Origin: Malania oleifera
Lineage: Eukaryota; Streptophyta; Magnoliopsida; Santalales; Ximeniaceae
NCBI RefSeq assembly: GCF_029873635.1
Contig: NC_080422.1
Span: 14,291,936-14,355,935 of the forward strand
Reading direction: 5' to 3'
Length of the DNA: 64,000 nt
A program made the position numbers and the translations under genes. This document shows, one piece after another, positions 2,425 to 57,125 of the stretch. The stretch's first letter is position 1; every line of letters begins with the position of its first letter. The notes under the pieces are model-generated. The model was not told where the DNA came from. It did not search any database and saw nothing but the letters and a program-made list of their open reading frames with translations.

Positions 2425-3870
2425 TGTTGGCCCGAGAGTAGAGTCTAGATGGGGGGTGAATGGACTATATTGCGTATTTAGGCTTTCCTCTGCAAAATAA
2501 AATTCTTGACAAGATAAAAGCAATTATATCACAATAAATAAAATTTAAATCATGCACAAGATATGAAATAAAGAGTAAAGAGTGGAGAAGCTTAACACCA
2601 ATATTTTGACGTGGTTTGGCACCAAGCCTACGTCCATGCCTTAAGACAAACTCAAGGATTCCACAATCCACTATAAAACTCCTTCACTGGCGAAGAAGCC
2701 TTACAACGAGAGAACAAATCCTTCAACGCTTACCAAGAGCCTTCACACGAGAACAAATCCCACAATGCTCACCAAGAGCCGCAAGGTTCACCAAGGAGCC
2801 TTGCAATTTTGGTTTACCAAGAACCTTCACCAATTGGTTCACAAAGAACCTTTTGCAACAAGAAGATGAATTACAAAATGATGCTCCTTTAATTTTAGGT
2901 GATATCAAATACAATACAACCTCACACTATTGTTTCAAGTAATGAATCAAACAAGATTAAAGAGCAAATGAGAAATTGAGCACTTGCTATGAAGAACTAA
3001 AATGCAAAATGCATAGGTTTTGTATTCAAAGGATGTTAATCACTAAACTCATGTAAAAATCTTCAAAACCATGTGTAATCAAGCCTAAAGACTTGTATTT
3101 ATAGCCAAATGCATGAGCTAACTGTTATCAGAATGTTGGGAGTGAATCCCATTTGAATGGCTCAAGAACTAGTCGTTTTCTTGCCAGTTAGTTTCAGGGC
3201 TCAATGCAAATCATCGACGAGTTGACTTTAATCGTCGATGAGTTGCCCTCAGTCGTTGATGAATTACCCCAATTCATCAACGAGTTCCCTAGGCAGAAAA
3301 CTCATTTAGATATTGGAAAAATTCATCGACAAGTTGCTCTAATTTGTCGACGAGTTCCCCCAATTCGTCGACGATTCACCCATATTCGTTGAAAATTTGA
3401 TTGGGCAGAAACTCACTTTGGTTACTGGCCTAATTAGTCGACAAATAAACCCAATTAGTCGATGATTTTCCCTGTTTTTCATACCAATATGCCTTTTAAT
3501 GAATTAATCCAATCTTGGACAGAAGTATATGAAAGATATTAAAGCCAATGATAGTTTATACTTGTCCTTATGAAGTTTTTATTAATTATAAGATATCTTG
3601 TTTATGAAAACGCATTTGAAAGATCATTTTGATATCTTATACACTAGTATGTCCTTTATAAAAATATACTTGACTTTCTTGAGACTTTAGGACATAAAAC
3701 TTGTTTTGACAAAATCAGGACTAAGTGTATAAATGTTCATAATACCATGATGTTGAAAACTTGTCCCTTGTGAAAACAAATTTTGATTATAGAATTCTTT
3801 TGTCAAACTCTTCGATTTATCTTTGAAAAACTATGAATATTGAGTTTGTGACTTAGTGAAATTGGTAGGC
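2425..3870 (-). mobile_element. LTR (copia-like, minus) with U3 TCGTCGACGA array
   Basis: The left edge reads tgttggcccgagag, followed by the G-run and gtgaatgg typical of one class of plant copia LTRs. The minus-strand TATA box is GGCTATAAATAC (3096-3105). Upstream of it, at 3200-3465, lies an array of about ten TCGTCGACGA-type boxes. The body matches a second LTR at 4241-5519 along most of its length. The right edge is approximate, taken from where similarity between the copies ends near gtttgtgactta. No target duplication was found. Confidence 0.55.
3200..3465. promoter_or_regulatory. Array of TCGTCGACGA-type boxes in LTR U3
   Basis: About ten boxes such as catcgacgag, cgtcgatgag, tcatcaacgag, ttgtcgacgag, ttcgtcgacga and agtcgatga occur at 20-45 bp spacing. 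They lie upstream (minus sense) of the TATA box at 3096-3105. Most deviations from TCGTCGACGA are C-to-T or G-to-A at CpG. A regulatory role is inferred from position only. Confidence 0.55.
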
Positions 3871-4240
3871 TCGCCAAGGCTTGGGTCCTTAACTATCAAA
3901 AATAATATTTTTATAACCTAACTATCCCAAGTTTTGTAGAAAGTGGGTAAGTTGGGTGTCGATCCTTAGGGACTTGAAGTGCAGTGATTAAACCTCTTCC
4001 AAATCAGTTTATTACGGCCTTGCTATGAAAAAGAAGTAAAAGGTGGTATTTTTCAATGGATGATATATAACCAACTACGGGAAAGCAATTAAATGAAAGC
4101 AAGTAAATCTATACTACTGGAAAGCGAGCAAATCTCTATGTTACCCTACTCCTACAAAGCGATGTTGAGGTCGGAATCAGATGCTGGACGCCATGCTTCT
4201 AACTATGCTCATCCACACTTCCATAGAAGTACTTGTTAGT
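3871..4240 (-). mobile_element. Athila/Tat-type gypsy LTR fragment, minus (distal part)
   Basis: There is no coding sequence. The phrases gtcgatccttagggactt and gaaagcaattaaatgaaagc resemble those at about 6060-6130. I read this as the distal part of the same minus-strand gypsy LTR that ends at 7102, interrupted by the LTR at 4241-5519. The assignment rests on sequence style and position, not on a full alignment. Confidence 0.35.
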
Positions 4241-5519
4241 TGTCCCAGCCCAGGAGTATGTAGTCCAGAGGGGGGGGTTGAATGGACTCTTTTGTGAATT
4301 ACAAACTTTCTCTAAAAAATAAAACACTAGGAAAGATGCAAGCAATTATATCACAATATATGAAATTTAAATCATACACAAGACAAATAATAAAGAGTAT
4401 AGGGAGAGAAAATCAACACCGGTATTTTTACATGGTTTGGCACCAAACCTACATCCACGCCTTAAGACCAACTCAAGGATTCCACTGTATGATCTCCTTC
4501 ACTGGCGCAGAAGCCTTACAACTCAGGAACAAATCCCTCCCGCTCACCAAGAGCCTCTTCGGTTCACAAAGAACCTTCACCAAACGGTCCATAAAGAACC
4601 TTACAAGAAGATGATGGAAATATAATATGATGCTCCTCAAATGAGAAAATATTAAATACAAAGCAAACCTCACACTATCTCTCAAGTAATGAATCAAACA
4701 CAATTAAAGAGCAAGAGAAAATGAGCACTTGTGAATGAAGAACAACAATGCAAAGTGCTAGGTGCTTAGGTTTTGGTGTAAAAAGATATTTTTCACTAAG
4801 AATGATCAAAAGCCTTCAAAACCATGTTAATACATGTCTAATAGCTTGTATTTATAGCCCAAGAGCCTTAAGAGCCGTTAACCAGCTGTTGGGGGGAAGA
4901 AAAGATATTTTATTTGGTAAACTAGCCGTTTTTCGCCTGTTAGCGTCATTTTGCCCATTGGACTCGTCGACTAGGCCCCTACACTCGTCGATTAATCATA
5001 TATTGCAACTCGTCGATGAATCCCCTGTGTTCGTCAACGAGGTCCCTGAATTAGAAAAAGTTATCAACGTGAAAGTTGTGGCATTTTGTCTTGACACCAA
5101 GATCATCCCATTTGGACTTTTCTGCACTATGGTAGTGACGATTGCTTTATTTTTCCTTATCAAAAAACGTTTTAATGACTCAAAACTTTCTTGGACAAAA
5201 GTATATGAAATATATTAAGTCTAATGAAGATTAAAACTTGTCCAAATGAGTTTTCTTTTGAATATAAGATATCTTAATTAATAAAACACGTTTGAAAACT
5301 CATTTTGATACTTATATGCTTAGTATGTCATTTTATAAATATACCTTTAGGACATAAAACTTATTTTAACACAATCGGGATTAAGTATAAAAATGTTCTT
5401 AAAACTAGGATGTTAAAAACTTGTCCCTTTGAAAACATATTTGAGTTTTAGGAATCATTTGACAAACTCTTGTTTTAACTTAGAAAACTATGAATTGTGA
5501 GTTTGTTACTTTTGTGCAG
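4241..5519 (-). mobile_element. LTR (copia-like, minus), second copy with TCGTCGACGA boxes
   Basis: It matches the LTR at 2425-3870. Shared parts are the G-run with gaatggac, the gcaattatatcacaat block, the ccaactcaaggattcca block, the TATA box (plus tatttatag, 4849-4857) and the 5' portion up to tatgaattgtgagtttgt. Its U3 carries four boxes at 4965-5045 (ctcgtcgact, ctcgtcgatt, ctcgtcgatg, ttcgtcaacga), fewer than the other copy. Both edges are approximate and no target duplication is evident. Confidence 0.5.
4965..5045. promoter_or_regulatory. Short array of TCGTCGACGA-type boxes in LTR U3
   Basis: Four boxes at about 20-30 bp spacing sit upstream (minus sense) of the TATA box at 4849-4857. 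The related LTR at 2425-3870 has about ten, so copy number differs within one family. Confidence 0.5.
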
Positions 5520-11154: not shown

Positions 11155-11261
11155 TATAACGACCCAGAAAATTTTGACTATTTAAAATAATAAGAAGGAT
11201 AATAAGGAAAAAGGGAAAATAGGAGAAAAGGAAAAAGAAATATTAAAGGGAAATAAAAAAG

Positions 11262-11455
11262 CGCTTGTTGACGAGTTGGACTTTCTTGTCGACAAGAAAC
11301 CTGTGGAGCCTCGTCACCGAGCATGCTTGTCTCGCCGACGAGGGTTTACCCAGAGAGGGTTTTGAATACCTGAATTTCATCAACGAGATCTCGGTCTCGT
11401 CCATGAGTGGTGTACTTGGGCTCGTCAACGAGTCCAAACGTCTCGTTGACGAGGC
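11262..11455. promoter_or_regulatory. TCGTCGACGA-type box array in 5' LTR U3
   Basis: Boxes include cttgttgacgag, cttgtcgacaag, ctcgtcaccgag, ctcgccgacgag, catcaacgag, ctcgtcaacgag and ctcgttgacgag. They end about 20 bp upstream of the TATA box at 11472-11479. The equivalent boxes at 17395-17560 decayed at different CpGs, which points to a common CTCGTCGACGAG ancestor. Confidence 0.6.
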
Positions 11456-12214
11456 CACGTGGCAAGTTGCTTATAAATAGGGAGAAATCAGTTTTCAAAG
11501 AAGGAAATTTCATTTTTTTTCACTTTCTCTCTCTAAGCCACAACTTCTCTCCCTTCTCTCTTCGATTCAGGGTCAGATTTAGCTCAGTTCGATGATCGGA
11601 AGCTACCATAAGACTCTTGGAAAGATTCTCTGCAATATAGGCTGAGCGGATTTTCGATTAGAGAAGTTTGGAAAACATCCCAAAACCAAGGTAAGTGAAA
11701 TTATTTAAGGTTTTATTATTATTATGAGGTATTTGGAGCTTAGGAAGTATTATATGGGTATTTTTCTGAGATTTGAGGAATTTGAAATTTTTGGAATACA
11801 GGGTCTCGTTTTGTTGATTTTAGGCAGGAATCCTGAGGAGTAGGTAAGGGGAAATATTTTATAATCGCTTTTTAATAATTTTAAATGACTAATTTCGGGT
11901 ATAATTTTTACATATTCAGGTATAATTTTTCTGAAACATGTTGGTATTAAAAAATACTGATTATATATATATATATATATATATATTATATTGAGAAAAA
12001 TCATGTGGTTGAAACCATTCTTGTTAATTAAATGATTGTGAGCATTGTGGAATGATGAATCATTGAGATTGCGAATAATGTTTGGCTGTGATTTCTGCCT
12101 GATTGATTATACTAGTTAATTACAGATACTGTTGTTGTGTATACTGTGGTAGAACTGTGGATGTGTTGAATGATTGACTGTTGTTGACTTATGTTGTGGT
12201 TCATGTAAATTACG

Positions 12215-12370
12215 ATATAGCGTTGGCAGTGGTATGAGAAGGTTGTTATATCATACCTAGTATAACCGTCATATAACATTGGTAGTGATATGAGGAGGTC
12301 GTTATATGAGCGTTTATATTGGGAGGTAAACATTGACAGTGGTATGAGGAGGTTGTTTACCTATTTACCA
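12215..12370 (+). repeat. Direct repeats in LTR (cgttggcagtggtatgag units)
   Basis: Three units with the core ttggcagtggtatgag and gaggttgttata occur at roughly 55 bp spacing. The same set is found in the other LTR at 18320-18470. Intact frames do not run through them. Confidence 0.5.
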
Positions 12371-12404
12371 TGAACAGAGTGTTTATTATATAACCTGTGT
12401 GGTT

Positions 12405-12600
12405 TGATTAGTCTTGTGTGGATATATATGTTGTGTGATTGGTTAGTCCTGTGTGGACCATTCCTATGTGAACATGTATGTGTAATTGATAGTCCTGTGT
12501 GGACCATGTAATCTGTGCGATTGGTTAGTCCTGTGTGGATGTTTATGATGTGTGTGTTAGAAGTCCTATGTGGAGGAATACATATTGTGTGAATGTAGAC
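12405..12600 (+). repeat. AGTCCTGTGTGGA minisatellite in LTR
   Basis: The 13-bp phrase agtcctgtgtgga and variants recur about six times with variable spacers such as catgtatgtgtaattg. The 3' LTR copy at 18510-18790 has more perfect and more numerous units, including two back-to-back pairs, so copy number changed after insertion. Confidence 0.55.
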
Positions 12601-12989
12601 CCTATGTGGGTATGATTGAAGACTGTATGATTATCTTGTATGGATTGATTTTAATATGTTTATGTGTGTGGAGTTCTGTGAGACGAATATGGTTGGCTGC
12701 GTGTGACTTTAATTAATTAAGTATTTTGGGTAAAGTAGATTACTCCACCCGAGGGCTTGCTGAGGAAGGCGAATACCTAGTAATTATTTATGGATACCAG
12801 AGTAGAGGGAAGCCACTTGTATGGACGGGTGATCTTCCCTATTCTTAGTGACTTTACCTGGATACATGACCTGAGGGCTTACTAAGAAAGGTGAGTGTCG
12901 TGGTGTTAGCACTAGAGCAGAGAGAAGCTACTTGTATGGGCGGATAGACTTCCCTATTCTCAAGAATTATGTAATAACCTAAAGAATTA

Positions 12990-13210
12990 GAAGGGTTCTC
13001 GTTGACAAATACAGGGGATTCGTCAACGAGGATACAAAAGAGCTCGTCGACGAGGATACAAGAGGAGCTCGTTGACGAGGACAAGTTTCGTCGTCAAAAA
13101 GATACCGAGAGGGGGTTTATGGAGGTCTAAAATTCGTCGACGATGAGAGGAGGTTCATCAATGAACTCCTTTAAGGACTCGTCGACGAGATGACGTGTCT
13201 TGTCAACAAA
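12990..13210. promoter_or_regulatory. TCGTCGACGA-type box array in solo LTR U3
   Basis: Boxes include ctcgttgaca, ttcgtcaacgag, ctcgtcgacgag, ctcgttgacgag, ttcgtcgtca, ttcgtcgacga, ttcatcaatga, ctcgtcgacgag and cttgtcaaca. The last lies only a few bases before the TATA box at 13219-13226. This is one of the least decayed arrays in the window. Confidence 0.6.
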
Positions 13211-13265
13211 TCCGACGCTATAAATAGTGAAAACCTGGGTTAATTTTCAAAATTTGGCATAAATC

Positions 13266-13267
<2 letters not shown>

Positions 13268-13306
<39 letters not shown>
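13268..13306 (+). repeat. CT microsatellite
   Basis: An uninterrupted run of CT dinucleotides just downstream of the LTR TATA box, in the expected leader of the LTR transcript. Confidence 0.9.
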
Positions 13307-17292: not shown

Positions 17293-17394
17293 TGTAAAGA
17301 CCCAGAAAATTTTGACTATTTAAAATAATAAGAAGGATAAGGAAAATGGGAAAATAGGAGAAAAGGGAAAAGAAATATTAAAGGGAAATAAAGA

Positions 17395-17560
17395 GACGCT
17401 TGTCGATGAGTTGGACTTTCTCGTCGACGGGAAACCTGCAGAGCCTCGTCGTCGAGCATTCTTGTCTCGTCAATGAGGGTTTACCAAGAGAGGGTTTTGA
17501 ATACCTGAATTTCATCGACGAGATCTCGGTCTCGTCCACGAGTGGTGTACTTGGGCTCGA
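17395..17560. promoter_or_regulatory. TCGTCGACGA-type box array in 3' LTR U3
   Basis: Boxes cttgtcgatgag, ctcgtcgacggg, ctcgtcgtcgag, ctcgtcaatgag, catcgacgag and ctcgtccacgag lie upstream of the TATA box at 17580-17587. They are out of step with the 5' LTR only at CpG sites and one deletion. Confidence 0.6.
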
Positions 17561-18064
17561 GGCCATGTGGCAAGTTGCTTATAAATAGGGAGAAATCAGT
17601 TTTCAACAGAGGAAATTTCATTTTCTTCACTTCGTCTCTTTAAGCCACGACTCCTCTCCCTTCTTTCTTCAATTTCGGGCCAAATTTAGCTCGGTTCGAC
17701 GATCGGAAGCTGCCACGAGACTCCTGGGAAGATTCTCTGCAATATAGGTAGAGCGGATTTTCGATTGAAGAAGTTTGGAAAACATCCCAAAACCAGAGTA
17801 AGTGAAATAATTTAAGGTTTTATTATTATTTTGAGGTATTTGGAGCCTAGGAAGTATTATATGGGCATTTTTCTGAGATTTGAGGAATTTGGAATTTTTG
17901 GAATACAGGGTCTCGTTTTGTTAATTTTATGTAGGAATCATGAGGAGCAGGTAAGGGGAAATATTTTATAATAGCTTTTTAATAATTTTAAATGACTAAT
18001 TTCGGGTATAATTTCTACATATTCAGGTATAATTTTTCTGAAACATGCTAGTATTGAAAAATAC

Positions 18065-18104
<40 letters not shown>

Positions 18105-18509
18105 GAAAAATCATGTGGTTGAAACCATTCTTGTTAATTAAATGATTGTGAGCATTGTGGAATGATGAATCATTGATATTGCGAATAATGTTTGGCTTTG
18201 ATTTTTGATTGGTTTATTATACTGGTTAATTGCAGATACTGTTGTTGTGTATACTGTGGTAGAACTGTGGATGTGTTGAATGATTGGTTGCTGTTGACTT
18301 ATGTTGTGGTTCATGCGTATTGCGATATAGCGTTGGCAATGGTATGAGAAGGTCGTTATATCGTACCTGGGACAATCGTCATATAACGTTGGCAATGGTA
18401 TGAGAAGGTCGTTATATGGGCATTTGTATTGGGAGGTAAACATTGGTAGTGGTATGAGAAGGTTGTTTACCTATTTACCATGAACGAAGTGTTTATTTTA
18501 TAATCTGTA

Positions 18510-18790
18510 TGGTTTGATTAGTCCTGTGTGGATATATATGTTGTGTGATTAGTTAGTCCTGTGTGGACCAGTCCTGTGTGGACATGTATGTGTAATTGAC
18601 AGTCCTGTGTGGACCATGTAATCTATGTGATTGGTTAGTCCTGTGTGGACCAGTCCTGTGTGGACGTTTATGATGTGTGTGTTAGAAGTCCTGTGTGGAC
18701 GAATACATATTGTGTGAATGTAGACCCTATGTGAGTATGATTGAAAACTGTACGATTATCCTGTGTGGATTGATTGTGATATGTTTATAT
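18510..18790 (+). repeat. AGTCCTGTGTGGA minisatellite, 3' LTR copy
   Basis: Eight or so units of agtcctgtgtgga or cagtcctgtgtgga are separated by short GT-rich spacers. It is expanded relative to 12405-12600. Confidence 0.6.
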
Positions 18791-19589
18791 GTGTGGAGTT
18801 CTGTGAGACGAATATGGTTGGCTGCATGTGACTTTAATTAATTAAGTATTTTGGGTAAAGTAGATTACTCCACCCGAGAGCTTGCTGAGGAAGGCGAGTA
18901 CCTGGTAATTATTTATGGATACCAGAGTAGAGGGAATCCACTTGTATGGGCGGGTGACCTTCCCTATTCTCGGTGACTTTACCTCGATATATAACTCAAG
19001 GGCTTACTAAGAAAGGTGAGTGCCCTGGTGTTAGCACTAGAGTAGAGGGAATCTACTTGTATGAGCGGATAGACTTCCCTATTCTCGGGAATTATCAGTA
19101 AAATATTTATGAATGTGGACACGTGATTGGATGACAAAGGCGTTGACTATGTTGTGATTATGAGCGTGTTACTTTGGCTACTAGTGGATTGTGAATGCAT
19201 TTGTATGGATATTTTAATTATATATTAAACACTTCAGCCACACACTATTATAAATTATTTCTTCCTTACTAAGAGGTGTCTCACCCTGTTGATGATTTAA
19301 TCTTTTCAGGTTATCCTGGTAATCGAGCTTAGATAGCTCTAGGGTGGATAGTTTTGTGAGTGGTACCAGAATGATTATGTTTTTAGTTTTTATGTTATGT
19401 ATATTTTATTCAGGTTTTGTAGTATAAAGAATAGGGTTGTAATTATTATGGATTTGCATAAGTAAATCTAGAAGTCTGGTATATTTTTTTTGAGGTTATT
19501 TTATTATTTTTGCTGTGTGAATGGTATGAGAGATGTGTGTTGCTCTCATAACACTCTGGGCCCCACATGGCGGGTCCAGGGGCGTTACA

Positions 19590-21380: not shown

Positions 21381-22777
21381 TGTTGCTCACATTCGGGAGC
21401 ACACCGCCTAAACTTTCTCAATAATCTCTCATCGACGAGACATGTGTACCTCGTCGCCGAAATCTACGGGATATTCGTTGACGAAGACCCTATGTTCGTC
21501 GACGAAGCCCTGCTATTCTCCCTTTTTAAATTTTCCTTCCCTTTCTTATTCTTCTCTCTCTCTCTCTCTCTTTATTACTTTTATCAATTTATTTTTCCAA
21601 CTCTCTACAGAGCGTGTCCCCAACGGTCATAATTTTCGTAAAATCTATAAAACTCCCTCATAACTCCAGATTAACAATTTTGATTAACTCCAAATTCTCT
21701 CTAAACCCTTTGTTAATCATAATTCCCCCAAACCATTTTTTATTAATTTTTATTGATAAAATCATTTCTTTGAGGCATATTTTTATCAAATCTCTTCTAT
21801 TCTCTTTCCATTTATTTATTTCAAAATTTATTTTGAAGGAGAGCATATTTATTTTGGGCATTTACATTTACTCTCATTTGCATATTCATTTATTAAAATC
21901 ATTTTTGAGAGTAGCCTTAATATTTCTTCCTGTTATTTTTCTTGATAAACATTTTTGGGAGAAATTATTTATTGCACAAATATTTTTCTTAAACTTAAAC
22001 TCCAGATTTTCCAAATACTTTTATTTGTAAAAATCTTTGTTGGAGAGCATAATAATCATTTTATATCCATATATGTTATTTGTGCAAATTTATTTGATAA
22101 CTCCCTTTCTCTACTGATCATAATGCATATCATAAGAGAGTGCATGTATTTAGAGTTTAAATGTTGTACATCTCTGTTTTTATTTAGAAGCATTTTATCA
22201 TATACAAAAATGTTTTTCTTGTATCAGTTGAGTTCAGCCCGTAATTGAATTGGGGAGTCTCAGGCTCGTAAGTGAGATCGGTTCAGTTCAGCCCGAAAAT
22301 TGAATTGGAGAGTCTCAATCCCGTAAATGAGACAGGTTTAGCCTAGAAATTGAATTAGGGTTTTCCTCACCCCGTAAGGAGAGGATGTAAACAGCTTCTG
22401 CTCCACCCGTTTAAGTGAGTAGGTTTAGTGCAATCCTTGGGGGATATGCCCAAGACGGGGACGTAAGCTGGTTTGGCCGAACTTCGATAACAAATATCAT
22501 GTGTGTCTCTCTCCCTATTTCATTTAAATTATTGCACTTTAAATTCAGTACGTGTATGCCTATTTATTTACTGTCATATTTATTTGCATGCACACTTTTA
22601 AATTAAATGAGATATACTACACACATGTGTATCTACACTCACAGTTTAATTATTTTACATACACGTTTGTATTATGAAAGAGATGTGATATGCGGTGAAT
22701 CAGCATAAATGTTTAATTTATTCAAAATATTTTAAAACTCAATTCACCCCCCTCTTGGGATCACATCAATTCCAACA
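21381..22777 (+). mobile_element. Solo copia-type LTR, plus
   Basis: It starts tgttgctcac and ends with the attcacccccctcttggg signature and tccaaca. The U3 has TCGTCGACGA boxes (21428-21510), then a CT-rich tract, then TATAAAA at 21646-21652. The middle contains three similar blocks built on cagcccg..aattgaattggg (22225-22370). No PBS or internal region follows. The expected 5-bp duplication was not found, and the Athila sequence does not resume on the right, so a flank may be deleted. Confidence 0.6.
21428..21510. promoter_or_regulatory. TCGTCGACGA-type box array in LTR U3
   Basis: The boxes are ctcatcgacgag, ctcgtcgccga, ttcgttgacgaa and ttcgtcgacgaa, upstream of TATAAAA at 21646. The LTR differs in end sequences from the Tekay-like LTRs that carry the same box. 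Confidence 0.55.
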
Positions 22778-25324: not shown

Positions 25325-28300
25325 CTGCTTCGTGTGGTGATGGCAGAAGGGTTAAAATGCCAACATGAGATGAAGATAAAAGACTTTCTCTTTCAATTAC
25401 AGCTTATAAAGTTAAGTGTCAAATTGAAAGGGTACAAACTTTGTTAGTGTACTTGAAATATTGAACAAGAAATGGTCATAACACGAGGACCTGCATTTCA
25501 TGCCCAGAGAAACAGCAGAATTCAACTCAACAATCACCGTTGAATTGATTGAGAGTTACCTGGCTCATGCGTGGCCGGCGCCGCGCTGAATGACGGATAC
25601 AGACAGCCGCACAAGCAACCATTCGAGCCATCTCACTGGAGTTGTAATCCTTCTGCAATCTAGGATCCACGATGGCATCGAAGTTCCCGTCTTCAAAAGC
25701 TTGCATTAGCAGAGGCCTTGCCTAAAACATCAAATGATATGACATGTTATATTTCCCATACCATCCAAGTTTGTAATTAAGGACTATCCTGTATTAATAT
25801 GAAACACAAAAAAGTCAATTTGGAAGACCATGATCATCACTCAAAACAAAAAGTACTGTGTAACAGTGAGATATGACCTTCTATCAAATATCTTTCACAA
25901 TGGATGTGCCTGCGTTGAGGAGTTGTCATTATTTTATAATAAAAGCCATGTGATGTCAACAAAATGCAAAATAGGAATTATCTATGCCTATGGCTGGAGG
26001 TCATGTACCAAGAAGAGTTTACCAGCATTTGCAAATACATTCAAGTTCAACCATTAGAAAGTACTATTTATGAAGGCGGACAAGAAAACTCTCACCCAGT
26101 CAACAATGCTGTCTTCAATGAAGTATTGAGCTTTATCGATTGGCCGATGCCCAGTGATCAACTCCAGAAGCACAACCCCAAAGGAGAAGACATCTGACCT
26201 ATCAGTAAGCTTCCCACTTGAAGCATACTCTGGGGCCAAGTAACTGCAAGCAGTACGCGTGCATGTGAGCAATAAGAAAAAGGAAGCACACAAGATGCAC
26301 AAGCACTGTTAAGACTGTATTCCCTGTTCAAAATATTAGCAGCTCCAAAAATTGGCAGAACAGTACAATATTTTTCTCTGTTAGGGCAGCAAGAGCAGCT
26401 AATCATAGAAGTCCTGCTGTTTATATGTTGTGATATGGATCGTATAATGAAGATACGCAGCAGAATAAACAACAAGAAGTAAATGTAAATAACACTCACA
26501 TAACCATAACAAGATCAACACAAAGATTTTACGTGGTTCGGCAAAACCTACATCCGCGGAAGCAATGACACACAATTTCACTAAGGAAATCAAAATGTAC
26601 ACAATACAGTTCTCTAACGATCATCTCCCATCTCAAAATATGCCCAGATGACATATATAGAAGTTCCACGGAGGTTTCCCCCCATTTGCCCAACCACCCA
26701 ACGTTCAAAAAATTCAAAATTCAGAAAAACTGCTGCAGCCTAGGCGCCTCTCATCGACGAACGCAGGGCCTCGTCGACGAGACCAAAAAGACCCTTTGTC
26801 GACGAATATAGGGCTCTCGTCGACGATGCCAAAAATCTGAAAGTTTTCTGCTCTCGGTAATTGTTTGTCGACGAGCTTCAAAACCTTCGTCGACGAACCT
26901 CTGCTGTTCCCTCACCGATGAGCATAGGCTCCTCGTCGACGAATCCTGCTGTGCTGCTCCCTTCATATTTTTCCTCCTTTCTTCTCTGCTTATCAAAACA
27001 GAAGTATAAGAGCCACAAATAACATTATATATTGTGTATCCAAACCCAAAAATGACATCAAGTGTCAATGTAACATAGCCTATCCAACAATGGAATGTCC
27101 ACTTTTCTATTCTTCTATTCTCTTCAGGGGTGTGTTGGGTGGTGGAGTGTAATTGAAATAATTTAGTGAGCCATGGATATTTGATTTCACATCGTAATAT
27201 CCTCTTATTGCCACTGAATCGCTAAGTTATCATCTATGAAGCATGAATGCTTCTAGACCACGAGTCCATGACCATATCATGTCTTTTCTGTATCAAAGAA
27301 GGTGGGGTATGCGCGTCAAGCTAAGACTATTATCATATTGTTTCTATATCAAAGTGTTGGGTTTCTGAGTCCCTTTCCTACATGGAAAAAAATCCAAAAA
27401 TTGTTCATAGATTTTAGGGATATTTACTGGTAAAAAAAAGTCCATAATTTGAGCTGAGCCGCTACGGGTCACTATATATATATCTCTAATGTGCCCTAGG
27501 GTTTTCAGGTGTTGATTGAAGAGAACAGAGGTTTGGAGAGAAAAATAGATTTTTAGTAGCCTTCATTCAACTCTGTGCAGCTCCATTCAAACGAGCAACC
27601 TGCAATGATCCATTGTTGGATCGAGCTGAAATTTTAACTAGACGTTCTTGAATCGTGGTTCTTCCATCTGAAAGGTGGGATTGGCAATTGGTTTTCTGTA
27701 GCTACGTGTTTTGTGGCCAAACAGCAGGCTCTGGTTTTGGTGATATTTCTCCAACTTTCTTCACACTCTTACTGTTTCAGGAAGCTTTATATATGTTGAT
27801 AGTATTCTATGCACTTCTTGTTAAGTGTTATGAATTGGACAATATAAAACTGCAATTGGTGATGGTGGAGTTTGATGGACCTTTGGTTTTGTGGTTTTTA
27901 CCATTCACATTGAGGGGGTTTTTTACATTAACATTTATGTTCTTTTGTGTGTTTGTGTTTTTGTGCATTCTTGTTTTTTATGTTGTGTTTTTCCATAGGG
28001 GTTTTTGCCCATGTTTCAGATTATTTTTTTCACATTCTTGCATAAGATTATTTCGGCAGATAAACTACCCTACAATGAAAACAACACAATCAGACAAAAG
28101 AACACAAAATTCTAATGCAGAAAAACTCCCTCAATGTAAAGGGTAAAAACTACGGGACCAAAGGTCCAGGCTCCAATATCACCAATTTCAATTTAAAATT
28201 TTTCCAACTTATTGCACTCAACAAGCATGAATCAGTATAAGTGTGAAGAAGGTTGGAGAAATATCATCAAAATACCCCCCCCCCCCCCAAAATCAGATTG

Positions 28301-34300: not shown

Positions 34301-37300
34301 TATGTTGAAGCATGTCAGGCAGGAGATTTGAGCAAGGGGAAGCTTGCAATGAAAAACGAGATGAAATCTCTTACCTCCAACAAAACATGGGAACTAGCTA
34401 AGTTGCCCAAAGGTAAGAAGACTCTTCATAACAAATGGGTGTACGGGATCAAAGAAGAGCATGATGGATCCAAGAGGTATAAAACCCAGTTAGTAATCAA
34501 ACGTTTCGAGCAAAAGGAAGGAATTGACTACATTGATATTTTTACACCAATTGTGAAGCTGACAACCATCAAATCTGTCTTGAGTATTGTTGCCTCAGAA
34601 GGCTTACATCTTGAGCAGTTGGACATGAAGACAGCATTTCTTCACGGTGATCTTGATGAGAAAATTTATATGTAACAGACAGAAGGTTTCTCAATTAAAA
34701 GTAAAGAAAATCTTGTGTGCAAATTGAAGAAGAACTTATATGGTCTCAAACAAGCTCCTAGGTAGTGGTACAAGAAGTTTGACAACTGTATGCAGAGGAA
34801 AAATTTTCAGAAGTGCAATGCCGACCACTATTGCTACTTCAAGAGGTATCATACTAGCTATATTATCCTATTGTTATATGTTGATGATATTCTAGTAGTG
34901 GGATCATATATAGAAGAGATCAGAAAATTGAAACAACAATTGTCAGAGGAGTTTGACATGAAAGACTTGGGTCCTGCAAAACAGATTCTTGGGATGCGGA
35001 TCTCTAGAGATAAGCAACAAGGAATGTTGCGGTTATCTCAGTCAGAGTACATTAGCCGTATTTTACAAAGGTTTAACATGAGCAGCACCAAAATGGTAAA
35101 TACACCATTGGCAGGTCACTTCTGTCTCATGTACCATACGCCTTAGCCGTTGGAAGTCTTATGTATGCTATGGTTGGTACCAGACCAGATATTGGCTAAG
35201 CAATGGGAGCTGTCAGCAGGTACATGTCAAATCCACGGAAGACATATTTAAGCACATCATTTATCACTGGTTGAGGAGGTGTCTCTATCTCCAAGTGGGA
35301 GATTGTTGAGTAGCTGGAGCCAGAGACGCGTGTGAGCTGGTGCCACATGTGAGCTGTTAAGCGCGTTGAGCAGTAATCCGCAGCTGTCTGCGACTATTGA
35401 TTGAAGCCGAAATTGATTACAATTTTTTTGCCATTTACTGTAATTTCTCCAGCCACCTATAAATAGAGAAGTGTGTGCAAGTGAAAACGTAGGTCAATCT
35501 AGACCGAATCACGTAATTTTTGGTGTCTCTTATTTTTCTAGCGTGTGTTTATTATTCGTAGATTCCTAGCATAGTGGTCTCAAATTATGGGCTTTGTCCA
35601 CAAGTAAATATCTCTATATATAAGAAACAAGTTTTAGACTTTTTTGGAAATCCAAAAACCCAAAACAAAGAGAATATAAGTGCATCGAGTTAACTCGTGA
35701 GTTATATGAGCTCAACTCACTCTGTAGCTTGACACGACTCAAACTCTACTTGAGTGAGTTCAAGTCGAGCTCAAGCTAAAGTAGTTTGTTTGAAGGGTCA
35801 AGTGACTCGAGTTTAAGTTCTTTAAAATAAAAATCGAGAGAATAATCAAGCTTTATTAAACTTTTGTTAATTTATTATTTTTATATTGTATAAGTAATAT
35901 AATATATTTTTATAGGTACATTTAATGTTATATACATAAAATATGTCTTATACATATTTAATATTACTATATAACCGCTTAGAAAAAAATATATTTTATA
36001 ACCGCATCGATCTTAATTAAATTAAGCAGGTCAATTTCAAAATGAGTTTCAAGTTTAAAATTTTCAAAATTTTCAAGTTGGTTAAATTTCGGGTATCTTA
36101 CTTTCTTTATTCAAGTTGACTTGAATTTACCCTTGAAAACAAATACTGATACTCCTAGGAAATTCTTTGAAATCATGTCGGATAATTCAAAAACTTTTCA
36201 TATACTTAGTCTTCAACATATCTTAGTTTATTTTCAATTTTTTTTTCTAAATAAACTAAGAAAATAGGACAATATATGATGAAGACAAAAAACTTTTTTT
36301 GAATCATTGTACTTCTACTGGTTTATTTTTCTATTTAGGAATCGTTCGGAAACACTTGTGCAAAACTGCTTTTCAAAAAAAAGTACTGAATTTAATAAGT
36401 ATTGATAATAAGTGTTGAACTGAAAAGGTGTTAAATATTATAAGTGGTGTTTGATTGTGTTTAAAATAAGTGGCATTTGGATACTTACTTTTATTATGTG
36501 GTACTATATGATTAATTTTAAATATTTTTTAGATTACAAATATTAATATTTTTGAATTTAAAATTTTCATTAATAATTATTTTAATTATTTATAACTAAA
36601 ATTTAAATATTTTCTATTAAAAATAATATAAAATCATTAATTTTAATTAATAATAATCTTTTTATTAATGTATATTTATAACATATTACTATCATACTAA
36701 ATTATGATAAAAATAATATTATTAATTAAATTTTAAATTTTAATTTATTTAATGTTAATTTAAACTAATAAATAGTTCTCGTTCAATCCATAATTGAATT
36801 ATAATAACCAATATGTATATTTGTAATAAAAATAATATATTTTATAATTAAAATTTTAAATGATAATATATTAATTTTCTAATTAAATTTTAAATATTTT
36901 CTATTAAATAAAATAATATATTATTATAATTATAAATTAACAATAATCTTGTTATTAATTTATATTTATAACATATAATTATCACATTAATTTATATCAA
37001 AAATAATATTAATAACTGAATTAAAATTTTTAGTTTATATATTATTAATTTAGATTTATAGATGGTTCTTTTTGTTCATTCTAGAATTTAATCATATTTT
37101 ATTAATAATTAATAGGTTATAATGCATAATAAAATAATATATGACTAATTTTTAATTAAAACTTTAATTAATATTTATGTTGACTGTTATTTTTAATTAA
37201 CATATTAATATTTTTTAAAAATAAAAATAATATAATATTAGTTGAGATGCTTCTCAAAATTCATGCAACATAGAGCATGCTCATTCAACCCCTTTTAAGT

Positions 37301-39754: not shown

Positions 39755-39861
39755 CGCCGGCTCTTAGTATGACGTCACACCACCGAGCCACCTCCGCCTC
39801 CCCTCCGACTACAACTCCCTTCGCCGGTGTAGTATCCCCGGCAATCTCTGACTTCGCGGAG

Positions 39862-48356: not shown

Positions 48357-48361
48357 GTTTT

Positions 48362-48657: not shown

Positions 48658-50090
48658 ATGAGTGATTCTGAAATTGATTTGAGTAATCTGTTTGAAGAAT
48701 TCTTTGAGGAAGTTATGGTTGCACCTAAGGGTGAGCATAATTCGGGGACACCCGAATTAACCGAACTAACCGACCAATTTCGGTCGGTTTGGTTCGGTCA
48801 AGAAATAGGGTTGGTTCGGTTCGGTTACGATTTTACCAATTTTCGGTTAATCGGTTATCGGTTCGGTTAATATGAATTATCATTTCGGTTAACCGAATTA
48901 ACTGAATTGATAATTAATGATTCTAGTGATTCTACTCTTATAGTTTAATACCAAAATATCTTTTTTATTAATAAAATTAATAGATGAGATGCTTAATTAA
49001 GCTCGAATTAGTAAAAAAGTTATAATTATATTCTGTTTTTAATAATTAATTTCAAATTATTTCGGTTAAATTCGGTTAACCGAATTACTCGAAAAGGTAA
49101 TTCGGTCGGGTTCGGTTCGGTGAGCTTCCTTTGTTCGGTCAGTTCGGTTATCAGAAATCATTAACCAAAAATTTCGGTTAATTCGGTTAATTAACCGAAT
49201 GTGGCCGAACTAACCGTTTGCTCACCTCTAGTTGCACCTTCACCACGTACACTTCAGAATTTTCTACAGCCTACACGCACATCTACACCTTCCTGTATTG
49301 TGTTACCACAAGATGCACCGAATTTCACCATTAAGCATGGTATGTTATCTGTGATACCCCAGTTTCATGAGATGGATTCTGAGAGTCCATACCAGCATTT
49401 GATTGATTTTGAGATGGTTTGTACCACTTTCATTAATAGGGTTGAAACCGATGAGTATATCAAACTTCGCCTGTTTCCTTTTTCTTTGAAAGATAAGGCA
49501 AAAATCTGGTTTAATTTTCTATGACCTAACTCTATTACTAGTTAGGCTAAAATGTAGCGTGAGTTCTTACATAAGTTCTTTCCTTTTCAGAGAACTCAAT
49601 ACCTATAGGAGCATATCAGTCAGTTCATGCAAAGAGGTGACAAGACGTTCCAAGCTTGCTAGGAGAGATTTAAGGACCTGATGAATATATGTCCACACCA
49701 CGGATTCAAATCTTGGAAGTTAGTGAATTATTTTTATACTGTTTTAACCCCTGAATGTAAATAGTTTGTCCAAACCATGTGCAACGAGGAGTTCTTTAGT
49801 AAGGAACCGGATGAGGCTCTATCATTCTTTGATTATTTAGCTAAGAGTGCCCAACAATGGAACACATGTCATGAACGAGTACCAATGGTAGCACAACCTC
49901 TCAAAACGATCAGTGGTAGAGGCAGATACAAGGTCAAGGAGGAAACTAGTCTACAGGCTCTTGTTGCTGCGTTGTCTAAGAAACTAGAGGTTATGGAATC
50001 AGAAAAAGTGAAAGTTGAGGATTACTCTATCTGTGAGACCTTAGACCACAGAATTCAAGATTGTCATTTACTACCAGTTTGGTAGGAGAG
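48658..50090 (+). pseudogene. Athila gag remnant, split by a MITE
   Basis: It starts MSDSEIDLSNLFEEFFEEVM, is interrupted by the MITE at 48726-49230, and resumes APSPRTLQNFLQPTRTSTPS, then FHEMDSESPYQHLIDFE and FPFSLKDKAKIWFNFL, classic Athila gag text. Further pieces are at 49777-50085. Stops such as TAG after WFNFL and in the following block show decay. Confidence 0.8.
48726..49230. mobile_element. hAT-like MITE in Athila gag, TSD GTTGCACC
   Basis: 505 bp with 12-bp inverted ends taagggtgagca and tgctcacctcta (reverse complement tagaggtgagca). It is flanked by a perfect 8-bp duplication GTTGCACC (48718-48725 and 49231-49238), the size typical of hAT elements. The interior is built from palindromic phrases such as tcggttaaccgaat. 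Removing it restores the gag reading frame across the site. Confidence 0.88.
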
Positions 50091-51039
50091 TAGATTGGAT
50101 CGGGTTCAATCAGGGAATTGGGTCAACAAATCTCAAAATCAGCCATTCTCGAACACTTATAATCCTGGATTAAGGAATCACTCAAACCTCTCATGGAGGA
50201 ATGATCAGTCTGGTCCATCTTCCTCATGTTATCAGCAAGTTCCTCAATCTTATGCACCACCTCCGCAGCCGCTATATCATTTAGTTGCAACTCCTCAACA
50301 GCAGTATCAGCCGCAACAGATTTATCAGAGCTTCGCACCTCCGAGATTTCAACCAAATTTAGCTCCTATTCCAATAAAGAAATCTCCTGATGATAGCATG
50401 ACATAGATGGCGAACATGTTTTAGAAATTCATGTAGATTCACGTCACGACCAACAATAAGAATAATCAAGCCTTTAGTGAACTGAGAGACACCATGAATA
50501 AAATAAGTACAAAGCTGAATACCTTGGAAAAAAGGGACATTTCCAGCACAACCTCAGCCTGATCCCCAGGTATATCAACAACAACAATGACCAATACACA
50601 ATATTTCAAGGGATGCTTTGAGTCAGCTAAGGCAGTTATTACCTTGAGAAGCGGAAAGGAAGTTTCTCCTCTTGAAATGCCTACTGATCGAAAAATATTT
50701 ACTCCAACACCTGAAGTGACAACTGTGATAGATAAGGGAAAATAAAAATCAAATGAAGCAAACTTGAGTTCAAAGAAGTCAGATAATAAGGAGGATGAGA
50801 TGGTTAAGGAGTATCAACCTGTGGTACCCTCTTCTCAGCAATTAACATCTGGTTAGAAAAATAAGTATCACACTAAGATCCAAGAAATATTCAAACAGGT
50901 GATGATCAACATTCCACTTTTGGATGCCATGCAGCAAGTCCCTGTATATGCAAAGCTTCTAAAAAACCTATGCACAGTAAAAAGGAAACTGAATGTGAAG
51001 AAAAAAGGTTTTCTTGACTGAGCAAGTTAGTGCGTTGAT

Positions 51040-51325
51040 ATTGAGTCAGATTCTGCAAAAACTCAGAGATCCTGATTCTCCTACTATTTCTATCATGATT
51101 GGTGAATCTCATATCGAGAGAACTTCACTTGATGTGGGGAGCAATGTGAACTTGCTCCCATATTCGACATATGAGTAGCTAGGTTTAGGTGAGCTAAAGA
51201 AAACAACTATGATGCTATAGTTGGCAGACAGATCCATAAAAGCTCCACAAGGCATTGTTGAGGATATATTGGCTCAAGTTGACAAATTTTACTACCCCGT
51301 AGGCTTCGTTGTTCTAGACATGTAA
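51040..51325 (+). pseudogene. Athila protease remnant
   Basis: The frame near 51127 gives LDVGSNVNLLPYSTYE, the position of the Athila protease D-x-G-A/S motif, followed by LGLGELKKTT, LADRSIKAPQGIVEDILAQV and DKFYYPVGFVVLDM. TAG stops replace expected residues after YE and MML. Confidence 0.7.
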
Positions 51326-51667
51326 CAGCCCGTCTCCACCATATATCAGGCCCATATTATTCTTTGGCGACTATTCCTTGCTACTTCTAATGCCTTGATT
51401 AATTGTCGAAGTGGAGTACTTAAGCTCACGTTTGGAAACATGACTTTGGAAATGAACGTGTTCAATGCTCGCAAGATGTCAAGTGGGTGCGATGACACAG
51501 AAACACATGCAGTTGATGTAATAGATGATTTGGATATTTTAGAGTTACTAACAATACTTGATGTTGATGGTGCATTTGAAAATGACTCTTCTGAACATCT
51601 TGGGGTATTTGATGAAAAATTGCCTGGATCAGAGGGGTAGTTTCCAGAGATAGATGGTTCCCCTCAC

Positions 51668-53285
51668 TTGTTGGATGCAAGTTACACGAGTAGTTGGCGT
51701 AAGCCAATGTTTGAGGCTATTGACCTGCCCAAAATTATGAAGTCATTAGAAGAAAAAATCTCAACACTTGAGTTGAAACCATTGCCTGAAGAGCTAAAAT
51801 ATGTTTTCATAGGTCTAGCAGAAGGCACATTCCCTGTGGTAATTTCTTCTCACCTTACTCTTAAACAAGAAACTGAGTTATTGCAGGTATTAAGGAAACA
51901 TCAAGGAGCGATAGGATGGACCATTGTAAACATCAAGGGTATCGACCCTTCGATTTGTACTCACAACATCTTCTTGGAAGAAGATGCTAAACCAATTCAT
52001 GACGCGCAACGGAGGCTGAATCTAACCATGAAGGAGGTGGTAAAGAACGAAGTGCTAAAATTATTTGCTACCGATATCATCTATATCTTCGACAGCAAAT
52101 GGGTAAGCAGGACATAGGTAGTTCTAAAAAATTTGGTTTGACTGTCATTGAAAAGGCTAATGGAGAGTTGATCCCATCTAGGAAAGTAACGAGTTGGAGA
52201 ATGTGCATTGACTATCTTAAATTAAATTCGGTTAGCCAAAAAGATCACTTCCCATTGCCTTTCTTAGATCAGATACTCGAAAAAGTAGCTAGTAATTCCT
52301 TTTACTATTTCGTGGATGGATTTTATGGTTATTATCAAATTGTTGTAGCACCTGAGGATCAAGAGACTTGTCCCTTCGATACTTTCACCTTTTGTAGAAT
52401 GCCATTTGGTTTATGCAATGCACTTGCTACTTTCCAGTGCTGCATGATAAGTATTTTCTCTGATATGTTAGATGATATGTGTGAAATTTTTATGGATGAA
52501 TTTTCTGTGTTTGGCAAATCCTTTGATAGTTGTTTGAAAAATTTGACTGCTATTTTGAAAAGATGTGAGGAAAAGAATTTGCTTTTGAATTGAGAAAAAT
52601 GTCAATTTATGGTAAGTAGTGGTTTAGTACTTGGTCATTTGGTTTCTAAGCATGGTATAGAGGTTGATAGGGCTAAGGTAGAGCTGATTTCCCAGTTACC
52701 TATCCCTAGAACAATTAGGGATATCCATTCTTTCCTTGGCCATGCTGGCTTCTACAGGCATTTCATTTAGGGCTTTAGTAGTATTGCTAAACCATTATGT
52801 ATTTTATTGCAGAATGAGACTAAATTCTTGTGGACTGATGAATGTCAACAGGCTTTTGAAATGCTAAAGAAACATTTGACTATTATGTCTATCATGCAAC
52901 CTCCTCGGTGGGACTTGCCATTTGAAATCATGACTGATGCTAGTGACTACGCCCTTGGTGCCGTTTTGGGTCAAAGAATTGATAACAAGCCATCAATCAT
53001 TTATTATGTGATTTGAACTTTGAATGATGCTTAGAAAAATTATACCACCACTAAGAAGGAATTGTTAGCTGTTGTATTTGCCTTATAAAAATTTCGTTCT
53101 TATGTCATTGAATCGTCTGTCATTATTTTTACTGCTCACTTTGCTTTGAAATATTTGTTAGCAAAGAAAGATGCTAAACCTAAGTTGATCAGATGGATTC
53201 TACTTCTTCAGGAATTCGACATCACTATTTGAGATGAAAAGGGCGTGGAAAATGTTGTAATTGATCATCTCTCTCGTTTGTAGCT
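51668..53285 (+). pseudogene. Athila RT and RNase H remnant
   Basis: Linker text LKPLPEELKYVFIG and RKHQGAIGWTIVNIKGIDPS at 51668-52117. RT at 52099-52593 has WRMCIDYLKLNSVSQKDHFP, GFYGYYQIVVAPEDQE and MPFGLCNALATFQ. The active-site box reads FMDEF where FMDDF is expected, so the second catalytic aspartate is lost. A connection domain follows (GHLVSKHGIEVDRAKVELIS), then RNase H with TDASDYALGAVLGQ at 52936. Several TGG or CAG codons have become TAG. Confidence 0.85.
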
Positions 53286-53289
53286 ACCT

Positions 53290-54655
53290 GATGTGTCTGT
53301 ATCTCCCTCTCCCTTAAATGATGATTTTCCTGATGAGCGTCTTTTTGCAGTGTCACGCACTCCGTGGTTTGCCAAAATTGTGAACTACCTTGTCACTGAC
53401 CGAATGCCAAAACATTGGTTAACTCAGGATAAGCGTAAGTTCCTTGCAGAGGTACGACATTATTATTTTGACAATCCATATATGTTTAAATAGTACTCTG
53501 ACCAGTTGGTTCGCAGATGTGTGCCTGATGATGAATTCACTTCTGTAATGCATTTTTGTCATAGTGGAGCATGTGGAGGTCGCTTTGCTGTAAAGAAAAT
53601 CGTTTCAAAAATTTTGCAAAGTGGACTCTACTAACCTATTATGTTTAAAGATGTTGAGAATTTTTGTAAAACCTGTGAGATTTGTCAGAAATTAGGGAAA
53701 ATTACAGTAAAGAATGAAATGTCTATGTCTCTCATTTTGACTCTTTTGAAATTTTTGACTATTGAGGAATTGACTTTATGAGGCCATTCCCAAACTCTTT
53801 TGGGCATTCTTACATTTTAGTTGTTGTGGACTATGTCTCAAAATGGGTGGAAGCTATTACTTGTAGAACAAATGACCACAGGGTTATCATCTGTTTTCTC
53901 AAGGAGTTATTTGCACATTTTGGCATGCCCAAGGCGATCATTAGTGATGGAGGGTTACATTTTTGTAACAAACCTTTCGAAAAACTCATGCAAAAGTATA
54001 GAATGACCTATAAGATTTTGCTCCCTACCACCCTCAGACTAATGGTCAAGCTGAGTTGGCCAATAGAGAGATCAAAATCATACTTGAGAAAACAGTGCGT
54101 CCTAATCGAAAAGACTAGTCAGAAAAACTTGTTAATGCACTCTTAGCCTACCAAACTGCTTTCAAGACAAACTTAGGGATGTTTCTTTACAGGTTAGTTT
54201 ACAGTAAGGCGTGTCATTTACCCGTTGAAATTCAACATTGTGCTTTATGGGCTATAAAACAGATTAACTTTTCACTTGATGATGCCAAAGGTTTAAGGAA
54301 ATTGCTGGTATGTGAGCTTGAAGAATCTAGGAGGGAAGCTTACGACAATGCCCGCTTAGCTAATGAGCGGATGAAATTGTTGCATGATAGGAAAATCAAA
54401 GACAAACAACTTTTCCCTTATCAGCAAGTGCTTCTCTATGACTCCAGATTGCATGTGTTTCTTGGAAAACTGAAGTCCTGATGGGATGGCTCGTACATCG
54501 TTGAAAAAGTTCATTCTCATGTCGTGGTAGAGATTGTAGATCCAAAGAGTGGCCACAGTTTCATAGTCAATGGACAGCTTCTAAAGCCCTTTATAACTCC
54601 ATTCGATCCACATGAAGAGGTTTTGCTTCTGCAAGACCCTAGGGGAGTCCTCTGA
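53290..54655 (+). pseudogene. Athila integrase remnant
   Basis: The zinc-binding region at 53560-53690 includes HFCHSGACGGRFA and CKTCEICQK. The core from 53760 has ILVVVDYVSKWVEAITCRTN and AIISDGGLHFCNK. A frameshift near 54020 falls before the third catalytic residue ([12 protein letters not shown] instead of the usual HPQTNGQ frame). The C-terminal part is at 54179-54600 ([20 protein letters not shown], the VNGQLLKPF ending). Confidence 0.8.
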
Positions 54656-56124: not shown

Positions 56125-56315
56125 TCATCGGCTCGTACGCCGGTATTTCAAATTTTTACCATAGCTAAGCCTGTATTCCGGCAAAACATATCCATAACTT
56201 GGCCTGTATGCCGGTAAAACATATCCATAGCTTGCCCATATGCCGGCAAAACATATCCAGAGCTCGGCTTATACGCCGGAAAATCATATAAAACTCTCAG
56301 CCCGTACACCGGTTT
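56125..56315. repeat. Tandem ~35-bp repeats in LTR (gccggcaaaacatatcca)
   Basis: Five or six units of roughly 35 bp share the core tacgccgg(c/t)aaaacatatcc and (g)ctcggcc(t/c)gta. The same array is in the 5' LTR at 63225-63420. Units are in the transcribed part of the LTR. Confidence 0.7.
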
Positions 56316-56929
56316 TCCATTATAAAAATTCATATCATTATCATATTCCCAAAAAACAGTAATTCATCATAAATTTTACTCATGCCACACAAAATGGGTA
56401 TTATATATATCCAGAACATATCATCATTTTCAACAGTATTTCCTAACATAGTACTCATATATATACATATATTTTCATGAAATCAAATGCTATACAATTT
56501 TACTCATAATTTTCATAAAACAACTAGCTTAGTTTATCCCCTTACCTGATTCCAGAGAAGCTCCTAAGAAAAACAAACCTACACTCACAGGGTTCCCCGT
56601 TCAACACCCTGAAAATGATATTCTCCAAAACTAAACTTCAGTATTTCTACGCATACTACACTTTCTACAACTGTCAAGAAGTCAATTTTGAGTAGAAAGC
56701 CTTACCCTGAATCTGGGATGGATTCTAAACTAGCCCCACCAATGATCTACTCTGACAGATATGTAGAGAACTTCCCTAGGAGCATCGTGGTGGCCTTGAA
56801 TCGTCGAACCGGCAAAAGATCGGCCCGAAATCCTAGAGAGAAGTAAGGGGAACCGAAAGGAGGAAGAGAGAGAAGCTCTGCGAAAAAAATCAGCCAAGAA
56901 ATCGCATTTAGGGCTACTTATACATTGGC

Positions 56930-57125
56930 CTTCGTTGACGAGCCACGTCACCCCGTTGACGAGGTCAAGAAAACAATTCGTCGATGAACTCCTCCCTTGT
57001 CGACAAAATTCAGAGATGTCCAAAACATCCTCTCGGTATTTTCTCATCGACGAAATGCTTCCTTGTCGACGAGCCCCTCACGCTTTCTCGTCAACGAACC
57101 CCCTGAATTCGTTGACGAGGCCATG
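56930..57125. promoter_or_regulatory. TCGTCGACGA-type box array in Tekay LTR U3
   Basis: Boxes ttcgttgacgag, cccgttgacgag, ttcgtcgatga, cttgtcgacaa, ctcatcgacga, cttgtcgacgag, ctcgtcaacga and ttcgttgacgag start about 8 bp upstream (minus sense) of the TATA box. The array is arranged as in the plus-strand LTRs at 11155 and 12970. Confidence 0.6.

Follow-up and report, generated by a model that had tools for sequence, protein, structure and literature searches.

Ordered arrays of one palindromic box in Ty3/gypsy and Ty1/copia long terminal repeats of Malania oleifera, and their possible exchange between superfamilies

A 64,000-nucleotide stretch of the Malania oleifera genome (assembly GCF_029873635.1, contig NC_080422.1, positions 14,291,936 to 14,355,935 of the forward strand; hereafter the window) holds retrotransposons in whose long terminal repeats (LTRs) one 10-bp palindrome with three CpGs, TCGTCGACGA, is repeated in ordered arrays within U3. 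One Ty3/gypsy LTR lineage and one classic-size copia family carry the module formed by these boxes, and a shortened form occurs in a probable Sirevirus family. Judging from the sequences, we lean towards reading the array as a U3 enhancer module of LTR retrotransposons, which the copia LTR at 26750 would have gained by exchange with the gypsy lineage. Eight arrays are referred to by the positions given in a preliminary description of the window (3200, 4965, 11262, 12990, 17395, 21428, 26750 and 56930), and their extents are collected with the associated features in Table 1.

Table 1. Box arrays and associated features, in positions of the window; figures joined by hyphens are spacings between successive boxes in bp
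Feature	Position	Strand	Context
Solo copia LTR, 599 bp, TGTTATTTG...TCACAACA	26426..27024	-	5-bp target duplication TATAA; ends match genome copies
Eight-box array 21-25-22-48-21-25-20, centre ACCGAGAG	26751..26942	-	Inside solo copia LTR; TATATAT 91 bp downstream
Eight-box array 21-25-21-45-20-25-21	11265..11452	+	Left LTR (11157-12970) of gypsy-type LTR pair; TATAAATA at 11472-11479
Array minus last two boxes	17400..17541	+	Right LTR 17295-19095, 89% identical to left; TATAAATA 38 bp downstream
Nine-box array, central CCGAGAGG	12999..13209	+	Starts 29 bp inside LTR beginning TGTAATAACC; TATAAATA 13219-13226, gap 9
Four-box array 21-24-22	21429..21505	-	Upstream flank weakly gypsy-like; no TATA within 150 bp on expected side
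Eight-box array 21-25-19-47-19-25-21, centre CCGAGAGG	56932..57118	-	Gypsy LTR; TATAAGTA 9 bp downstream
Ty3/gypsy reverse transcriptase piece (RVT_1)	59704..60183	-	Between LTR copies starting near 55.6 and 62.2 kb
Ten-box array 21-49-21-21-21-49-21-21-21	3211..3465	-	U3 of probable Sirevirus (copia) LTR; TATAAATA 3096-3103 minus, 107 bp downstream
Four-box array 21-25-21, first spacer ACACAGGGGAT	4964..5040	-	Second LTR copy of 3200/4965 family; TATAAATA 4849-4856 minus, 107 bp downstream

Allowing up to one mismatch, the window contains TCGTCGACGA 37 times, a number that none of 100 shuffles reaches (0.34 expected), and 36 of these matches fall in the eight named arrays (the remaining box is at 38680); the recurrence of the box in these arrays, and the four to ten boxes reported for each, were thus borne out. 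Across the assembly (1,494,336,490 bp in 510 contigs) the exact word occurs 132,361 times, compared with 1,383 for the reversed word, which serves as a CpG-free control, and two exact boxes separated by 1-31 bp are found at 20,690 places where the backward control gives 0. Twenty evenly placed 10-kb stretches (200 kb) hold 19 exact boxes, or 95 per Mb against 88.6 for the genome, and all 19 lie within nine arrays. The window, genome and paired-box counts rule out chance or low complexity as the source of the boxes, and since the box is constant while the spacers differ between families, the arrays are not a plain tandem satellite. The three-box pattern has no match in viral_contigs that would point to a viral source. 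An old gypsy element of another type at 49195-54481 (Athila-like by eye) has no nearby array; therefore not every LTR family here carries the box.

The arrays follow a readable order. Among the 100 paired-box matches listed, 17 repeat a place already counted on the opposite strand, and the other 83 are spaced at 19-21 bp (58) or 24-26 bp (25), with none elsewhere in the allowed range of 11-41 bp. The full plan consists of eight boxes at about 21-25-21, then 44-52 (about 47), then 20-25-21, and CCGAGAGG or a near form usually sits between boxes 4 and 5, giving two groups of four around a centre; by arithmetic from these spacings, successive box pairs are offset by about one third of a helical turn. 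An exact box followed by CCGAGAGG within 4-14 bp occurs at 2,657 places (backward control 1), the gap being exactly 7 bp in 99 of 100 among the matches listed, and the opposite order occurs at 15. Gypsy arrays that deviate from the plan have boxes gained, lost or shifted, with extra boxes in 12999, L030 and L031 and irregular ones in L017, L024 and L028_336. Both LTRs of L030 (287-574 and 7558-7845) carry an additional single box 55 bp upstream of the main array.

The orientation of the arrays relative to TATA is equally consistent. The preliminary description had proposed a genome-wide count of the box relative to TATA, and this yields 18,117 places with the box 5-35 bp before TATAAATA (9,697+8,420) and 91 in the reverse order (50+41). 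Among the 100 places listed, which are the first along contig C1 and in which large families weigh most, the gap is 9 bp in 38, 11-12 bp in 11, 19-22 bp in 14, 27-33 bp in 36 (mostly the next box back) and 5 bp in 1. Inspected singly, 25 gypsy arrays have a TATA-like word 9 bp downstream in 10 cases, 19-21 bp in 9 and 38 bp in one, and in five none was found on the expected side. The statement that the arrays always stand upstream of TATA holds for seven of the eight, where the TATA-like box is TATAAATA in five, TATAAGTA at 56930 and TATATAT, 91 bp off, at 26750. It fails for the 21428 array, which is probably truncated because no TATA lies within 150 bp on the expected side (a TATAAAA is 140 bp off on the other). 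That the arrays adjoin TATA suggests a role in promoter control.

The LTR at 26750 is the one on which the question of exchange turns. Its 599-bp extent was picked from four TG..CA pairs with matching 5-bp flanks, on account of the TGTT..AACA ends. From 3,328 first-look candidates in the genome 40 were scored, giving 41 matches including the window itself (1-1151); 29 of the 39 other full-length matches start exactly at the predicted end, query position 327 (the remaining ones at 318-329), and the same 39 end at 921-933, where 925 was predicted, one further match being a 93-bp fragment. Five same-strand LTR pairs of the family have a distance of 4.6-5.6 kb and three of 6.7-9.0 kb; a sample of two elements showed RVT_2 (PF07727) in two pieces of L040 and similarity to copia integrase and reverse transcriptase (RT) in L040 and L041, and one element has an iMet-type primer site, TTGGTATCAGAGC, directly after the LTR. 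From these distances, domains and primer site, the family is assigned to classic-size copia elements. All five copia LTR copies read carry the full module, with eight boxes (called at up to 4 mismatches) at 21-25-22-48-21-25-20 and a recognisable centre; the middle spacing is 47 and 52 in two of them, and TATATAT follows 88-92 bp downstream in all. The earlier division into copia and gypsy carriers is correct, except that the copia carriers belong to two different families.

On the minus strand, fragments of a receptor-like kinase gene that looks PERK-like by eye lie at 25043-26300 and 38291-39763; should they belong to one gene, the 26750 solo LTR sits in an intron of more than 11 kb, with its promoter pointing in the gene direction. 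A large inverted repeat at 28431-35571 consists of two head-to-head copia copies; its two longest blocks match at 89-91%, and 147 bp separate the innermost arms.

The spacers of the 26750 module were compared with those of gypsy arrays. Set against 19 gypsy centres, its central spacer has a score of 20.3, where shuffles score 11.8 +/- 1.2 and none of 2,000 reaches the observed value; the best single gypsy-centre match is reached by 1 of 2,000. When the own letters of each of the five copia copies were set against 13 full gypsy arrays with 1,000 shuffles, the copia centre was reached by 0-2 shuffles in every copy, and the spacer between boxes 6 and 7 by 0-17 (15 for the window copy). With its array masked, the copia LTR has no gypsy flank match below E 0.09. 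It does match a 31-34-bp stretch of the Sirevirus-like LTRs (GATGTAGG...GAACCACGTAAAAT; E 2e-4 and 5e-5); this match lies downstream of TATA and was not accepted as family identity. Exchange or capture between superfamilies is thus the best reading of the 26750 copia LTR on sequence grounds, and the pattern of its spacers would fit an old transfer of which only constrained parts are still alike. The capture of a U3 module that the preliminary description envisaged is accordingly retained for this LTR, which has the same eight-box spacing and the matching centre, and is given up for the gypsy arrays, which go back to common descent.

For the latter, 30 arrays were clustered on 600 bp of downstream or 120 bp of upstream flank. 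The downstream flanks form gypsy groups of 15 and 8, a cluster of three Sirevirus-like copies with 26751, which joins it via one 31-bp match only, and three singletons (21429, L024_5089 and L001); the upstream flanks put 24 of the 30 in one single-linkage cluster, in which the group of 8 is complete, the group of 15 mostly present and all three singletons included, with 12999 and L010 outside. The arrays at 11262, 12990, 17395 and 56930 group by their downstream flanks, and the 12990 and 56930 LTRs align over 572 bp at 68% identity; the 56932 array is carried by the LTR copy starting near 55.6 kb. Because of this flank clustering, the best reading of the arrays at 11262/17395, 12990 and 56930 is common descent within a single LTR lineage whose interiors have diverged; the 21428 array perhaps also belongs to it, its sole link being a weak match of 58 bp in the upstream flank (E 2.9e-4). 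Elements of the lineage have Ty3/gypsy gag, protease, RT (RVT_1), RNase H and Integrase_H2C2 between or beside the box LTRs. By the look of its sequence the main array lineage may be Tekay/Del-like; ten scanned pieces of L028 and L030 gave no chromodomain match. A (CT)19 tract at 13269-13306 follows the TATA of the 12990 LTR by about 45 bp, near the would-be transcription start. The eight arrays had been described as lying in unrelated LTRs, which does not hold: 3200 and 4965 belong to the same family, 11262 shares 89% identity with 17395, and the gypsy arrays form one lineage. The opposite outcome, that full alignment would reduce all of them to one family, is true within the gypsy arrays; between the superfamilies nothing but short stretches aligned, and a single LTR family for all arrays was rejected.

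The third carrier is the 3200/4965 family, for which 40 of 5,111 first-look genome candidates were scored. It has a copia gag (PF14223, E 4.1e-16), no RT having been recognised in a member, and in one copy (L035/L036) the 5' LTR junction CA / A(T or G)TGG / TATCAGAGC was found as ...CTAACA AGTGG TATCAGAGC. Octamers AGGGGGAG on the element strand number 2 in L033 and 5 in L034, each with fewer than 0.01 expected by composition, and there are none in L036, in L038 or in 210 bp of L037. A C-rich stretch, CACCCCCCCTCTGG, which is a candidate integrase signal, lies near the LTR 3' end of L035. The family is only probably a Sirevirus, because an octamer 10 bp before the 3' LTR with AT/TG was not found in the sole copy examined, which reads TGGGTGAGG TA TG at the candidate LTR start. 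At 24-2757, repeated blocks of 1.3-1.5 kb, 88-89% alike, join a copia RNase H-like piece (so identified by eye and by tblastn, Pfam giving no match) to a Sirevirus-like LTR R/U5. As for exchange, the first spacer ACACAGGGGAT of 4964 and L035 equals one of 37 distinct 11-nt gypsy spacers (array L029_5640) in 11 of 11 letters, which 4 of 100,000 shuffles reach. A 31-bp unit of two exact boxes around AYACAGGGGAT occurs at 464 genome places, all families taken together (backward control 0). The case for exchange in these Sirevirus-like arrays is weaker than that for the 26750 LTR.

Several results weigh against exchange, or against a strict shared module. In the 26750 family the other five spacer slots are reached by 72-761 of 1,000 shuffles, save that between boxes 7 and 8 of L045 (14 of 1,000); because only the centre and one further spacer of the seven match in every copy, strong functional convergence keeps some probability. 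The third spacer of the 4964-type array is unremarkable (22,928 of 100,000 shuffles), none of the seven short spacers of the 3211 array matches gypsy spacers beyond chance, and its two centres are not special against gypsy centres (1,231 and 125 of 2,000 shuffles). On automatic reading the full eight-box order is kept by 13 of 26 gypsy arrays, each LTR pair counted as two; the distance to TATA varies, being mostly 9 or 19-21 bp in gypsy, 88-92 bp in the copia LTRs and 107 bp in the Sirevirus-like ones; and the genome counts give large families heavy weight and do not represent independent events. The rival reading is that LTR lineages built their arrays independently, with no DNA exchanged, for one and the same complex of host proteins that sets the spacing by its geometry. 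In its favour, most copia-module spacers are without similarity to the gypsy slots, the 3211 array has a spacing of its own and no matching spacer, and the palindromes that form the repeated motifs of Sireviruses elsewhere among plants vary in sequence (PMC2829016). Such convergence has to account for eight boxes, the 21-25-22-48-21-25-20 order and a central CCGAGAG occurring together in a copia LTR, for a copia-gypsy centre similarity that none of 2,000 shuffles attains, and for a first spacer identical in the Sirevirus-like 4964 array and gypsy L029_5640, and we consider it unlikely.

Substitutions within the boxes bear on how they might function. In 215 boxes of 28 arrays, called at up to 3 mismatches, 189 of 229 substitutions are CpG transitions (C-to-T or G-to-A); the others are 24 transversions at CpG sites and 16 changes on the four non-CpG positions (860 positions). 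Genome-wide TCGTTGACGA occurs 63,985 times on the two strands, against 3,071 for TCGTAGACGA, whose backward control gives 2,155. Five LTR pairs differ inside their boxes by 9, 11, 8, 6 and 8 CpG transitions, 3, 6, 8, 2 and 2 other transitions and 0, 4, 0, 0 and 0 transversions, and the observed/expected ratio of CpG is 1.2-1.7 in five window arrays against 0.61 in the whole window. Because CpG transitions prevail and TCGTTGACGA far exceeds TCGTAGACGA, TTGAC and TGACG in box variants, in which the preliminary description saw possible WRKY and TGA sites, are most simply products of the decay of methylated CpG, and their reading as functional variants was dropped. The last spacer, next to TATA, is ggTGACGTGgc or near it in several members of the gypsy group of 15, giving a TGACG/ACGT core that may be a bZIP site.

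The mechanism we propose is that each palindrome would be bound by a dimer of one host DNA-binding protein, and that two dimers, two helical turns apart on boxes spaced 19-21 bp and hence on the same DNA face, would help to start LTR transcription; silenced copies would be methylated at their CpGs and decay to TpG/CpA. The 26750 copia LTR would have acquired the module by exchange with the gypsy lineage, in either direction; template switching between co-packaged RNAs and recombination between nested copies are conceivable routes. It has been proposed for maize Sireviruses that palindromes feed small-RNA silencing, and those of the arrays might likewise act mainly as RNA hairpins. Seven folded array stretches have z values of -4.5, -4.4, -4.3, -3.4, -3.2, -2.7 and -1.3, and excerpts of PMC10760457 report that palindrome clusters of Sirevirus LTRs attract small RNAs; yet palindromes fold by construction, so that hairpins are expected of any palindrome array, the value of -1.3, from the Sirevirus-like array, equals that of the single non-array stretch folded (-1.3), and hairpins need neither helical-turn spacing nor a fixed side of TATA, which makes this role very improbable. 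We give as little credence to an element-encoded protein that binds the box and counters silencing, as VANC does on the arrayed motifs of VANDAL, with other families exploiting it. VANC targets, as parts of PMC5735166 and PMC10398659 describe them, are short motifs densely arrayed in tandem outside coding regions, and the boxes are CpG-dense and adjoin a promoter; against this, VANC motifs are reported to be family-specific while the TCGTCGACGA box is common to several families, and ten scanned pieces of L028/L030 held only gag-pol domains or nothing, other open frames being unscanned.

Returning to the enhancer module, the wider proposal is that eight palindromes, arranged about a CCGAGAGG centre as four helically phased pairs, make up a complete, position-coded promoter module and a transferable unit which crossed between Ty3/gypsy and Ty1/copia and helped the palindrome to exceed 130,000 exact copies; it seems to us about as likely to be right as wrong. 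By the usual view, the LTR promoters of each family evolve rapidly and independently of those of other families. If the proposal is true, a shared module with a readable grammar would mean that control sequences spread sideways between retrotransposon superfamilies, and that one host factor and one methylation target are common to several abundant repeats of a genome; a single 10-mer offers a simple genome-wide handle for testing such sharing.

Among known systems the closest kind is that of the palindromic repeated motifs (RMs) of Sireviruses. As PMC2829016 presents them, RM boxes are palindromic, multi-copy and CpG-rich and lie in the upper LTR half shortly upstream of TATA, and the TCGTCGACGA arrays likewise repeat a palindromic box upstream of TATA in the LTR; the Vitis RM box CGGTCGACCG and TCGTCGACGA also have a GTCGAC centre in common. 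The core of TCGTCGACGA differs in being without the CGG-CCG signature, which Tnd-1 in the same source also lacks. RMs were Sirevirus-specific among the copia elements studied there and absent from classic copia, whereas the present arrays occur mainly in Ty3/gypsy LTRs and a classic-size copia family, with strict pair spacing and a CCGAGAGG centre. The CpG islands of Del (Tekay) elements likewise place a CpG-rich stretch close to the 5' end of a gypsy LTR. PMC4029996 links such stretches to the promoter, reports no CpG island for the eudicot Del LTRs studied there and describes the 5' island of the others as poorly conserved, whereas here it is an ordered array of a single palindrome. VANC target arrays resemble ours in the high density of a short motif in non-coding transposon parts, and differ in that YAGTATTAY is non-palindromic and reported as family-specific and that VANDALs are DNA transposons (excerpts of PMC5735166). 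For maize Ty3 elements, passages of PMC10760457 describe no obvious peak of hairpin structure. Titles and abstract openings on shared or palindromic U3 motifs give no account of the TCGTCGACGA box, and none of the titles among the listed papers containing the word TCGTCGACGA is about plant retrotransposons. Compared with Sirevirus RMs, what is new here is another box, its occurrence beyond Sireviruses and a strict grammar: within one genome, gypsy and classic copia LTRs have the same ordered array, and a probable Sirevirus family has a short form of it.

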